This document shows positions 1 through 4,314 of a stretch of DNA of 33,985 nt, in pieces. The DNA comes from Rubripirellula sp. (lineage in GTDB: Bacteria; Planctomycetota; Planctomycetia; Pirellulales; Pirellulaceae). The first letter of the stretch is position 1, and each line of letters starts with the position of its first letter. Made by a program: the position numbers and the translations under genes. The stretch lies in the NCBI GenBank assembly GCA_028823035.1, contig JAPKCI010000046.1:1-33985 (forward strand), given 5' to 3'. The notes beneath the pieces are model-generated. The model saw only the letters and a list, made by a program, of their open reading frames with translations, did no database searches and had not been told where the DNA came from.

Positions 1-1675
1 CTCCGCCTCGTCGTTCGTTGCCGATATAGGCGTTCGTGAAGAATTCAACCACACTGGTGCGGTTCGTCCGCTGAGTGGGGTCGAATTGGTACTGTTTGGG
101 AGCAGAATAATTGCGCACCCGGCCGCTGATCATACGGTCAATGGATTCAATCGTCATTCGATCTTTGGGGGGCAGTTCTTTGTCCATGCGAACGAGGGAT
201 TCCATGGCCAGTTCGCTGCTCTCCTCTTTAACCAGTGCCTGGATATAGCGACTAAACGCTCGCTTGCTTTTTCCATTGGCTTCGTAGACACGCGCCAAAT
301 TCAGGTTGATCATTCCGTCGTCGGGCAATCCAAACGCGGCGGAAAGCAGGTGACGCCACGCCTCGCGGTTATCTTTGGGAAGCAGCAGTTCGCCCAATCG
401 ACCATGCAGCTTGTAATTGGATTCCGGATAGCGGTCTTTGCGGGCACTTTTGACGCCAATCTCGCCCGCTGTAATTCCCAGTTCGGTTTCGCCTTCATTG
501 ACGAGTTCTTCCATCAGGTCGAACAGACGTGTTGCGCGAAGATCAGCTGGCATCGTGTCGTTAACCCACTGGATTGCCTGCGCAAGCTCGTCTGCCTCAC
601 TGCCCTCGTCCAACATCAGCGTTAACAGGTATTCGGCGGCTTCACGCCCGAGTCGAGTTTCGCCGTGTTCGTTCAGCCATTTCAGGATCAGGGTTGGATC
701 TTCGGCTACCCTTGCCTGAAACCACGCCAGTTCTTCTTCGGGAAAATCAGGTGAACCGGCGCTACGCACAGTTGCCAGCAACGACTGGCGGTCGATGTGG
801 ATACGAAACTTTTCCAGCAGATTGATGCCCATCACACCTGCGACGCCGTCCGGATGAACTTGAACAACCTCGGTCGGTCGGAACGCGACGTAGGGTGCAA
901 AGTCAATCGACTCGCAGATCAGCGGCCCAACATTCCCTGCTGGACGTCTTAACGAGTTACAGAGCCGACGTTCAAGACAAGTGTCGTAACGCGATGAGCC
1001 GATTGCCAACGCTCGTGATATCGTCTTGTTCTCAGCGTTTTCCGCTTGGGGAAGTTGCAGGTTCACTGGTAGCCAGACCAGATCATTTTGAAGCGTCACT
1101 TGGGTAACGATCTCATCGGACAACGGATCAGTCTGATAATCTGCCAGTTGGCCTGGAGGGGCGAGATTGATTTGCCCCTGAGGGAGATCAAAAATCACAT
1201 CGAAGTGCTTCAGCACGTGTGAGCCGATTGCCCCGGTTAGTGCATTCTCGCCAATCTCGTGGGAGTGGTACTTGGTGAAATTTTCGAACTCTTCCTCTGG
1301 GCCCAACTCACGGCGAGCGATTTCCAACGTAAAGTCAGCGAAATGCAAAGTGAGGGGATTTGGTTTGCCCGCCGGTGTTTCGGCTGGAAGTGGTGCCGCT
1401 GCGCGGTTGTGTAGCTGCAAGCCATAGGCACCATCAAAGTCGAGCCACAAGTTAACGGGGATTCTGAGGTTGGGTCCCGATATGTCGCAGGCGACGATCA
1501 AACGGCCATCGATAACTCTGACAGGGATTGAACCACCCTCGTCGCTTAGAACGGGGGGCCGATCAACCGATTCGCTGCTTTGGGCAACGACCACCTGCGG
1601 TACCAACAGGCAGAACAACGCCACCAGAATGCGATACACGAAACGAGAGCAGTCGGGGTGGCAGTTTTTGGGCAT
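1..1675 (-). CDS. Exported protein with doubled aspartic-protease-like fold and helical repeats (3' end outside window)
   Basis: The frame is open from ATG at 1675 to the left edge, 558 codons without a stop, so the C-terminus is missing. Residues 1-32 form a signal peptide (basic start, hydrophobic core, end near VVVAQ). Two lobes resemble the retropepsin-like fold of bacterial aspartyl proteases. Each ends in the typical pattern of Gly-rich turn, leucine pair and beta strand: TGAIGSHVLKHFDVIFDL in lobe 1 and GVMGINLLEKFRIHID in lobe 2. The catalytic Asp-Thr/Ser-Gly is not intact: lobe 1 has LDFDGAY (D79-Y84) and lobe 2 has AIGSSRY (from A224), which has no Asp. About residues 290-530 are helical and resemble TPR-type repeats. 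The last visible part (VVEFFTNAY, then NERRGG) starts another strand-rich segment. A binding or degenerate protease role in the periplasm is inferred; the substrate is unknown. Confidence 0.8.
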   Translation of the reverse strand, partial: MPKNCHPDCSRFVYRILVALFCLLVPQVVVAQSSESVDRPPVLSDEGGSIPVRVIDGRLIVACDISGPNLRIPVNLWLDFDGAYGLQLHNRAAAPLPAETPAGKPNPLTLHFADFTLEIARRELGPEEEFENFTKYHSHEIGENALTGAIGSHVLKHFDVIFDLPQGQINLAPPGQLADYQTDPLSDEIVTQVTLQNDLVWLPVNLQLPQAENAENKTISRALAIGSSRYDTCLERRLCNSLRRPAGNVGPLICESIDFAPYVAFRPTEVVQVHPDGVAGVMGINLLEKFRIHIDRQSLLATVRSAGSPDFPEEELAWFQARVAEDPTLILKWLNEHGETRLGREAAEYLLTLMLDEGSEADELAQAIQWVNDTMPADLRATRLFDLMEELVNEGETELGITAGEIGVKSARKDRYPESNYKLHGRLGELLLPKDNREAWRHLLSAAFGLPDDGMINLNLARVYEANGKSKRAFSRYIQALVKEESSELAMESLVRMDKELPPKDRMTIESIDRMISGRVRNYSAPKQYQFDPTQRTNRTSVVEFFTNAYIGNERRGG

Positions 1676-1905
1676 CAAATAACCAAGGCGCGAAAAGTGC
1701 ATATTAGCTGAGGGACATCGTCTCTGCACGAAGAAATATGCAGTTTCCTACCCAAATCGACCGCGAATGGCGGCAATTTGTCCTCGCCATGGCTTGCCGA
1801 AAGGCGGCCGCCCGCAGAAGTGTTGATGCGTCGATTCGTCGAAAGCCATATCGTGGCCCGGCTTCCGGCAGGGACATGCGGTTTCAGAAGCAACCGCGAT
1901 CATGA

Positions 1906-2022
1906 TCACTTCTTTGCTTTGCCCTCGATTTTTCCAAAGGCAAAGGTGTCGGCGATCATTTCAACATTGATTTTAGCAGTGGATGGTACGCTCACGGCGA
2001 CCGGATCAAAGCCACGGCCTCA
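1906..2022 (-). other. In-frame continuation past UGA: candidate selenocysteine codon and C-terminal extension
   Basis: The codons before the UGA (2020-2022) read Pro-Gly-Ser-Cys. After it come 37 sense codons in the same frame: GRGFDPVAVSVPSTAK, then INVEMIADTFAFGKIEGKAKK split over two strands and a basic end, then UGA at 1906-1908. The extension alternates hydrophobic and polar residues, as beta strands do, and fits the style of the preceding domain. Readings are selenocysteine insertion giving a Cys-Sec pair, stop-codon readthrough, or a recent nonsense mutation of CGA or TGG. No selA, selB, selC or selD gene is in the window, so the decoding machinery cannot be tested here. Confidence 0.5.
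1990..2018 (-). promoter_or_regulatory. Candidate bacterial SECIS hairpin downstream of UGA
   Basis: Counting U of UGA as 1 on the mRNA, bases 7-12 (CGUGGC) pair with 25-30 (GCCGUG), two of the six being G-U pairs. Bases 5-6 pair with 32-33 around a bulged A31. Above this come three unpaired U (13-15), a short GA/UC stem (16-17 with 23-24) and an apical loop UCCGG (18-22). E. coli fdhF has a bulged U at 17 and the SelB-contacting G23-U24 in its loop; here GGU falls at 21-23. The likeness is in layout, not in overall sequence. Folded by eye only. Confidence 0.4.
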
Positions 2023-3084
2023 GCACGATCCCGGTAGGATGGCCACCTTGAGAACAACTTGAGTTTCCGCATCCAGAACCTTGAACTCGGGCGATTTTCC
2101 GATTGGATGCCAACCGGAGTACTGTTCGCCAGCCTTGCCGTAATACCAGATGGAACGAGGTGAAAATTGCACCTCGTTGCCAACTCTTGCGAATTGAAAC
2201 TCCGAAGCGACGGGGCCACCCCAATCAAACTTTTTGGATCGGTCAGCTGCGAGTTTCAATGGTTTCATTCGGCCCGCTGAGATCGTCACGCGATGTTGTC
2301 CCAACCCCACTACACCCGCGACGACTGTGTAAGTGCCGGCCGGGACGCGGACGGGGCCTTCGATCGCAGCGATATCAAATGAGTTTTTTCGATCGGCTGA
2401 AATGATGACCGACGACAAAAGTACTGCTTTGGAGTTAAATGAAGTCGACATGTCGATTTCAGAAGTCGGACCGTCGTACGCGGATAACTGGAACGATTTG
2501 CCGTCGGCTGCAATGGCGATGTTCTGCAATTTGTCATCAACGTAGATCGTTGCTGACAGCATCATGGCGTGGTCGGTGTTACCCACAATCATCGCATCGC
2601 TGCCAACATCGTTGAATTTTCCATTTCCATTCTGATCAATGATCCGTACAGGAATGGGACCAGCTTGACTGTTAACGGTGCCAACCATGGCACCACCTGG
2701 TGCCCATTCCCAACCGTCGGCATCGTTTCGCAGTCTCGCAGCGTAGCGGAATGGCTGGCCCGACTTGTCAGTGCCGTTCAGAATCACACGGGTGCTCGAT
2801 ACCATCGTCTTGGGATCGACCAACGCCTTAATTGTGCGATCGAGTTCGCCATCACCATCGGTATCGACCTTCAGGCTGGTGCCCTCATATTCAAAGGCGA
2901 ATGTGTCACCACCAGCGTGCGGGATGCGAATCCCGTCCTGAAGCGGAAACCATGTTTCGCTGGGTAATTGCAGAGACCAGGTGCGATAACTTCGATATCG
3001 CAAATCGACCGACTCTGTTTCTTCTGCGGCACACAGCGGGATCATTACCGCTGTTGCCAAGAATCCCATGAGCAAACGTGACAT
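2020..3084 (-). CDS. Secreted protein of unknown function, possible selenoprotein
   Basis: The product is 354 residues up to the first UGA. ATG at 3084 is preceded by GGGAG (3091-3095), a good ribosome binding site. Residues 1-19 are a signal peptide ending at CAA. The rest is beta-rich: an Asp-rich stretch (DTDGDGELD), a second one (DQNGNGKFNDVG), and two carboxypeptidase-regulatory-like or Ig-like segments (VPAGTYTVVAG). I do not recognise the family. The Asp-rich pieces could bind calcium. The visible end is ILPGSC followed by UGA, after which the same frame stays open for 37 codons to a second UGA at 1906-1908. The full product could therefore be 392 residues with selenocysteine at 355. 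Otherwise it is a normal or mutated stop. It lies upstream of, and in the same direction as, the protease-fold gene, with a gap of about 230 bases. Confidence 0.85.
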   Translation of the reverse strand: MSRLLMGFLATAVMIPLCAAEETESVDLRYRSYRTWSLQLPSETWFPLQDGIRIPHAGGDTFAFEYEGTSLKVDTDGDGELDRTIKALVDPKTMVSSTRVILNGTDKSGQPFRYAARLRNDADGWEWAPGGAMVGTVNSQAGPIPVRIIDQNGNGKFNDVGSDAMIVGNTDHAMMLSATIYVDDKLQNIAIAADGKSFQLSAYDGPTSEIDMSTSFNSKAVLLSSVIISADRKNSFDIAAIEGPVRVPAGTYTVVAGVVGLGQHRVTISAGRMKPLKLAADRSKKFDWGGPVASEFQFARVGNEVQFSPRSIWYYGKAGEQYSGWHPIGKSPEFKVLDAETQVVLKVAILPGSC

Positions 3085-3439: not shown

Positions 3440-4075
3440 TCACTCGTCTGTCTGAGCCTCAGAAGCAGCCACCTTGAACGTTTCAATGAGCTCCAGGAAA
3501 GCCTCGGCATCGCCGCCTCCGACGTGATTCGCGATTGCCTGCTGCTGCGGCGTGAAGCAAACAAAGGTTGGATAGGCGCGGATCCCATTGTCTGCCGCAA
3601 AGTCTTGCTCGACTTCGGAGTCAATGTAGACGGGGATGACCGATTTCAGTGCCTCTTTGACCCTCTGGTCGGGAAATACCTGTGCGATCATCATTTTGCA
3701 GGGTGCACACCACGAAGCAGAAAACATTACGAGCAGCGGCTTGCCGCTGCTGATGGCCTCGGCACTCGCTTTGTCGAAGTCGGTAAACCAGTTTTCCGGC
3801 AACGTATGACCGGCAGTGTGTGACTTGGGCTGGACGGTTTGAAAGACCAGTTGATAAGCGTCGATTCGTCCAGCAAATTCTTCTGCTGAGATGATACCGT
3901 CCCCGTTGCGGTCCACGGTCGCGACGAACTTGCCCATCGTTTCAGCGTCACCACTGGCAATGCGGCGCGAGGCATAGGCTGTGAATTCCTCTAGAGTCCG
4001 GTCCTTTGCCGATACGCTAGGCAGCAGAACCAAAGTGGCGAGCACTACGATCGGAAGAATGGTACGAGAAAGCAT
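3440..4075 (-). CDS. Exported EF-hand and thioredoxin-fold protein
   Basis: Starting at ATG 4075 the product has 211 residues and a clear signal peptide (residues 1-23, ending SVSA). An upstream in-frame TTG at 4144 would put 23 polar residues before the signal, so it is rejected. A canonical EF-hand loop DRNGDGIISAEE lies at 55-66, with Ca ligands at positions 1, 3, 5 and 12 of the loop. A thioredoxin domain follows, with the active site WCAPC (C123, C126) and the conserved cis-proline in AYPT (P169). Combining a calcium-type motif with a thioredoxin fold in one exported protein suggests a periplasmic disulfide reductase or redox protein. The partner is not visible; neighbours are a selenoprotein candidate downstream and an SGNH hydrolase divergent from it. 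Confidence 0.9.
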   Translation of the reverse strand: MLSRTILPIVVLATLVLLPSVSAKDRTLEEFTAYASRRIASGDAETMGKFVATVDRNGDGIISAEEFAGRIDAYQLVFQTVQPKSHTAGHTLPENWFTDFDKASAEAISSGKPLLVMFSASWCAPCKMMIAQVFPDQRVKEALKSVIPVYIDSEVEQDFAADNGIRAYPTFVCFTPQQQAIANHVGGGDAEAFLELIETFKVAASEAQTDE

Positions 4076-4314
4076 CAAGTGGCCTCTGTGGATCATGTTT
4101 ACTGGAAGGATCATAACTGATGGTTGCTCGGTTGTCCTATCCAAAATGGAAAAGGATTCGAGCTGTTGTCATGTCTCGCTTTCTCTATACGACAGGCATC
4201 AGGTGTGTTTTCTGCGTGACAACGGAACGTAAGAAGATCATGCTAAACTTTCTGTCAAAACCTGCTGGTGGCGCTTGTCCGGTTTTGTCCCTCTAAAGAA
4301 ACGCAAATGTTGAG

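Follow-up and report, generated by a model that had tools for sequence, protein, structure and literature searches.

The question raised by this locus is whether an in-frame UGA near the end of a minus-strand gene terminates its protein or is read as selenocysteine (Sec). The window, meaning the whole 33,985-nucleotide stretch of Rubripirellula sp. DNA that was analysed, corresponds to contig C361 in a planctomycete genome of 7.4 Mb, which is assembled in 523 contigs and 99.6% complete. The minus-strand frame runs from 3084 to 1906 and consists of 354 codons from an ATG to a TGC, a TGA at 2022-2020, 37 sense codons, and a second TGA at 1908-1906. The features of the gene are:

1906..3084, minus strand: very probable selenoprotein gene, 392 residues through the UGA (frame and translation, with eight relatives 68-80% identical and nearly full length)
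3025..3084, minus strand: likely signal peptide of about 20 residues including Cys18 (judged by eye from the sequence)
2023..2025, minus strand: TGC encoding Cys354, the likely partner of Sec355 (Cys-Sec in 46 of 61 Sec members)
2020..2022, minus strand: UGA codon 355, very probably read as Sec (all nine close members have TGA; the Sec/Cys column does not vary among 26 divergent members selected for the motif)
1909..2019, minus strand: 37-codon extension that standard annotation misses (conserved, pN/pS 0.13)
1906-1908, minus strand: final stop TGA (frame and translation)

A first-pass annotation, made from the letters of the window alone, had proposed this 392-residue product with Sec at position 355. 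Its coordinates, residue numbers, and extension length proved correct when the frame was re-read from the sequence. The start of the gene is normal, as that annotation had stated, with GGGAG at 3095-3091, 6 nt upstream of the ATG, as a likely ribosome binding site and a signal-like N-terminus (both by eye).

One objection is that the UGA arose by mutation or through a sequencing mistake, which is conceivable in a single draft genome of 523 contigs. This reading is contradicted because relatives carry the same UGA, in separately deposited records and in other genomes, and its probability is negligible. Eight loci found in genome contigs, from records labelled Rhodopirellula, Rubripirellula, Planctomycetaceae or Planctomycetota, encode the nearly full-length relatives listed above. 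All eight have the TGA between Cys and Gly codons followed by 37 further codons, so that none of these homologues ends at the UGA; in one (L022), the final stop is TAA. Residues 347-359 around the Sec are identical across all nine close members. Records that are the window itself (L017, L099) or that repeat another locus (L018 and L101 repeat L024; L100 repeats L025) were not counted twice.

A second objection is that the UGA is a true stop, with the conserved extension being a read-through tail or a separate reading obtained through leaky termination. Under the standard code the only product is indeed the 354-residue protein. Amino-acid selection within the extension argues against a true stop: over the 36 pairs of the nine close members, pN/pS ahead of the UGA is 0.21 overall and 0.075 for the final 37 codons; past the UGA it is 0.13 across the 37-codon extension and 0.095 downstream of the stem-loop described below.

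The wider family bears on the same objection. A profile search of 392 Planctomycetota genomes gave matches in 85. Among the 45 matches of at least 160 bits, 41 contain an in-frame TGA and no other stop (one TGA in 37, two in four); the remaining four are L034 and L077, together with L073 and L076, in which the UGA lies just beyond the match. Sequences were retrieved for a part of the matches, as 30 loci and then 35 regions. Of the 73 members examined, 61 have UGA/Sec and two have Cys (L077 and L034), while ten were left unplaced by the script. The family therefore combines a conserved in-frame UGA with Cys homologues at the same site, and wherever the motif is kept this position holds Sec or Cys and neither Arg nor Trp. 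In L082, one of the ten unplaced, an in-frame UGA close to the site gives GAGUGF, with no stem by the rule given below; L082 possibly adds another Sec member and is left uncounted. A clear Sec motif is lacking in L078, L088, L090, and L092-L097, which are distantly related to the middle part of the protein. In an alignment (A5) of 26 divergent members, 25-69% identical to the protein of the window and picked for having the motif, the Sec/Cys column is among 11 invariant columns.

Cys at the UGA site in L077 and L034 argues against a true stop. A plain Cys homologue, L077 (GCCGGG), shares its genome with the Sec member L070. L034 (1501-2625) reads GSCGEG. A Sec-to-Cys change is suggested in L034 because a TGC stands at the expected UGA site with the stem-loop still 23 nt downstream; this stem-loop is a possible SECIS fossil. 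The two Cys members are far apart in the family tree, and the order of Sec/Cys events is unsure because of long branches and 17 of 70 forks that remain open. Within the class of the window, a full-length member is found in four of 397 genomes (its own included), each with one TGA; other parts of the phylum have the family more often. The patchy spread in this class points to loss or transfer.

The candidate SECIS stem-loop is the following:

1985..2002, minus strand: putative SECIS stem-loop GGUCGC[CGUGA]GCG-U-ACC, its loop 23 nt past the UGA (covariation, frozen codon spelling, controls)

The loop begins 23 nt after the UGA in 36 members, which were aligned as A2 with identical rows counted once (33 rows). 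In A2, 94.4% of cells pair, a value not attained in any of 500 shuffles, and pairing falls to 14-58% when the partner strand is slid. Fourteen cells carry a double change (UA/CG, GC/AU). Two further measures do not exceed chance in A2: the number of pairs with a double change was equalled by 175 of 500 shuffles, and that of further pair types by all 500. Four of the seven pairs are invariant, and the outermost pair is unpaired in 13 rows. A second alignment (A3) of 18 more divergent members, 15 of them distinct, has a bulge-free stem in which 100% of cells pair, its rows having been chosen by a rule that demands pairing. The covariation of A3 was reached by none of 500 shuffles, and two other measures by 128 and 47. 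Spacing between UGA and loop varies from 20 to 32 nt by whole codons; L055 and L075 were excluded from A2 because their spacing is 20 nt.

The stem-loop rule, which was drawn up after members had been inspected, is satisfied by 56 of the 61 Sec members; the control rates are 4.8% for other TGA triplets (n = 7883), 5.1% for in-gene positions (n = 14907), and 5.0% for shuffles (n = 3050). With the loop restricted to 23 nt, the figures are 49 of 61 against 0.14%, 0.44%, and 0.16% in the same three controls. The five Sec members that fail the rule (L066, L068, L069, L076, and L091) are absent from both covariation alignments. Codon spelling is frozen at positions +6 to +10 after the UGA: all 35 Pro codons are CCG, two sets of Val codons are uniformly GTC (26) and GTG (36), and all 31 Ser codons are AGY. 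At +8 all 30 Ala codons are GCC; GCC there occurs together with a codon ending in C at +10, and ACC with one ending in T.

The bacterial SECIS model, as given in part of PMC13188914, has a loop of 3-9 nt with G in the first two positions, a stem of 4-16 bp, a distance of 16-37 nt from the UGA, and a minimum free energy of −7.5 kcal/mol or lower. The window agrees with this model in loop (CGUGA), stem (6 bp with one bulge), and spacing (23 nt). Its stem alone has only −5.2 kcal/mol, with 29 of 200 shuffles equally good, and the 38-nt stretch has −8.6 kcal/mol, a stability not beyond that of shuffles (z +0.84). The stem of L048 reaches −10.3 kcal/mol. An Rfam search of window positions 1850-2150 gave no match at E up to 5.

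The hairpin that the first-pass annotation had put forward, CGUGGC/GCCGUG, is present in letters. As a SECIS it is not supported: it has some covariation over the A2 rows, at a score reached by 14 of 500 shuffles, but less of it than the neighbouring 3′ stem-loop. The SECIS is placed at 1985-2002, as the more likely position from these alignments, because pairing is kept there in 94.4% of cells as against 76.5% in the hairpin. Such a covarying SECIS-like loop speaks against a true stop.

The genome of the window is equipped to read a UGA as Sec, and this too argues against termination. All four genes that had been proposed for a search are present: tRNA-Sec scores 70.3 bits (cut-off 47) and is called by ARAGORN as tRNA-SeC with anticodon tca, and SelB (316 bits), SelA (507 bits), and SelD (243 bits) each exceed their family cut-off, which together make up the set expected of a bacterium with selenoproteins. 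SelD forms the C-terminal portion of a protein of 718 residues, the first part of which is FAD-dependent oxidoreductase-like (naming by eye), and its motif QCRGCGCK is without Sec (by eye). The genes for SelB, SelA, and the oxidoreductase-like/SelD fusion are consecutive at L098 2704-8332 on contig C325 of the same genome.

Across the phylum, tRNA-Sec was found in 231 of 392 sampled genomes, i.e. over half. Genomes with a Sec member number 46, as tallied by eye from locus tables; 39 of them have it, compared with 192 of 346 others (p = 1e-4, the genomes not being independent). In seven of the 46 it was not seen; re-examination of five of these (all except G495 and G514) gave tRNA-Sec past the cut-off in none and SelB past it in three. 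A strict coupling of the gene to the Sec machinery was ruled out because the genomes of two relatives, G176 and G083, carry tRNA-Sec and lack the gene.

Comparison of these genes shows that the UGA has been retained as a sense codon and that, in a Sec-equipped genome, a conserved stem-loop follows it at 23 nt; the codon is very probably read as Sec. Sec at 355, as first proposed, is supported by the UGA in nine of nine close members, the conserved extension, and the Sec genes. A true stop is accordingly very improbable, the more so since four divergent members have adjacent UGA pairs.

A partner residue accompanies the Sec in 57 of the 61 Sec members, as CU in 46, CxxU in six, UU in four, and UC in one, with none of these in four. 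The proposed Cys-Sec pair near the C-terminus thus holds as Cys354-Sec355. These two are the only such residues of the mature protein, the other Cys (Cys18) being lost with the likely signal peptide. A Sec/Cys exchange separates the sisters L070 (UU) and L072 (UC), and the UGA of L072 stays at 23 nt from its loop through a gap of one codon. In the UU members (L043, L070, L074, and L075), two adjacent in-frame UGA codons stand beside one stem-loop. Identity among these four is 30-39% over the five pairs, out of six, that were compared. A literature search listing held no title that looked relevant to adjacent Sec residues.

Mammalian thioredoxin reductase offers the closest local parallel. The GCUG tail of TrxR1 works via a selenenylsulfide, according to part of PMC2268967, and the family likewise has a vicinal Cys-Sec close to the C-terminus with Gly as the next residue; GCUG itself is present in 14 of 61 members. 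Unlike the reductase, the window protein has no flavoprotein domain match and is exported (by eye), its Sec lies 38 residues from the end rather than next to last, and its gene has a bacterial SECIS within the coding region. Pfam and NCBIfam gave no match to pyridine nucleotide-disulfide reductase domains, so that the local motif alone is shared.

A candidate electron partner is encoded next to the gene:

3440..4144, minus strand: thioredoxin-like protein with WCAPC (PF00085, E 1.1e-12), upstream and in the same direction, start codon uncertain

This thioredoxin-like gene lies upstream in all nine close members and also in L102. It supports a redox partnership in the close-member clade only, because the 0.5-1.5 kb flanks of distant members gave no thioredoxin-like match. 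A downstream gene (window 2-1729, minus strand) runs off the window; in L019 and L025 the selenoprotein gene is likewise followed by a relative of it (by eye).

From these data, SelB would deliver Sec-tRNA to UGA 355 and the product would be exported. Cys354 and Sec355 would then cycle between selenolthiol and selenenylsulfide, by analogy with the GCUG tail of mammalian thioredoxin reductase, and in the clade of the window the upstream-encoded thioredoxin-like protein may exchange electrons with the pair. The main rival accepts a selenoprotein and proposes, in place of electron cycling, a soft-metal site (for mercury or copper, for example) formed by the Cys-Sec pair. The exported place of the protein (by eye) is suitable for metal binding, and metal- or mercury-related families with CU are known from Table 1 of PMC13188914 (HgcA, the MerB-like SaoL, the metal-binding MbdU, and a CopZ-like protein). 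Shifts of the partner among CU, CxxU, UU, and UC, as well as the thioredoxin-like neighbour, suit a redox pair, and the mature window protein is without His or a further Cys cluster; none of these points is decisive. Metal binding is the less likely reading, though one of some weight. Redox cycling, when taken alone, is the best inference for the work of the protein and is held with modest confidence, and an exported thiol/selenol redox protein is inferred.

The claim that the family is unrecognised also stands. Searches of the window protein against Pfam, NCBIfam, PDB, and Rfam gave no match past a cut-off, and seven other members likewise gave none past the cut-offs of NCBIfam. Thioredoxin models matched neither the window protein nor the seven others. 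EF-hand and FlgH matches fell below their cut-offs and were rejected. With nine close sequences as input, AlphaFold2 reached a mean pLDDT of 50.9 over the full length and 51.0 over the C-terminal 112 residues. No fold is claimed because of this pLDDT of about 51 and because Foldseek found nothing for the models at E ≤ 0.001. A profile of the 26 divergent members gave weak matches to antibody light chains among PDB sequences (best E 0.0042), which are compatible with an Ig-like sandwich and are no proof of one.

Nothing recognisable as this family appears in the 119-family Table 1 of a 2026 review (PMC13188914), in section 7 of PMC12013277, in portions of PMC2398784 and PMC5029168, or in the passages of PMC9312934 returned by a term search. 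In that Table 1, CU occurs in several families and UU is absent. Its SaoL, SaoC, HgcA, MbdU, KCU-star, and CopZ-like form 2 resemble the window family in being bacterial with CU as the Sec-related motif; they differ in that no NCBIfam model matched the window protein or seven other members past its cut-off, a separation made by whole-NCBIfam search rather than model by model. GOS_A, GOS_B, and GOS_C, as described in part of PMC2398784, are likewise uncharacterised selenoprotein families from sequence comparison, in their case of sea water. They are set apart by description, having more Cys than Sec forms where the window family has the reverse, and GOS_C has a thioredoxin-like fold with UxxC. 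Selenoproteins have been reported in two planctomycetes, one a Rhodopirellula, according to part of PMC4807772. The family appears undescribed; the supplementary selenoprotein list of that paper lies outside the comparison, and priority is not fully settled.

The best explanation, held with high confidence on sequence evidence, is that the product of the locus is an exported and probably beta-rich selenoprotein, its family apparently undescribed, with a UGA that SelB would decode and a putative Cys354-Sec355 redox pair. Against it weigh the stem-loop energies and the covariation measures that shuffles equal, the seven Sec-member genomes in which tRNA-Sec was not seen, the two genomes of relatives with tRNA-Sec and no gene, the four Sec members with no partner, the distant flanks lacking a thioredoxin-like match, and the low pLDDT. 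A broader proposal, with the balance even, is that exported selenoproteins form a large, so far undescribed family in Planctomycetota, apart from the known sequence families, in which the pair moves among Cys-Sec, Sec-Cys, CxxU, and vicinal Sec-Sec encoded by adjacent UGAs with one SECIS. Standard annotation truncates the family at the UGA, by which the reactive pair and the last conserved segment are lost. The vicinal Sec-Sec, if true, would be a natural diselenide of neighbouring residues. If the broader proposal is correct, it would add an exported selenoprotein of no recognised sequence family that is common in a Sec-rich phylum, and one site would be available in natural CU, UC, UU, and CC forms. 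What Sec gains over Cys, and how two adjacent UGAs next to a single SECIS are decoded, could then be tested directly.
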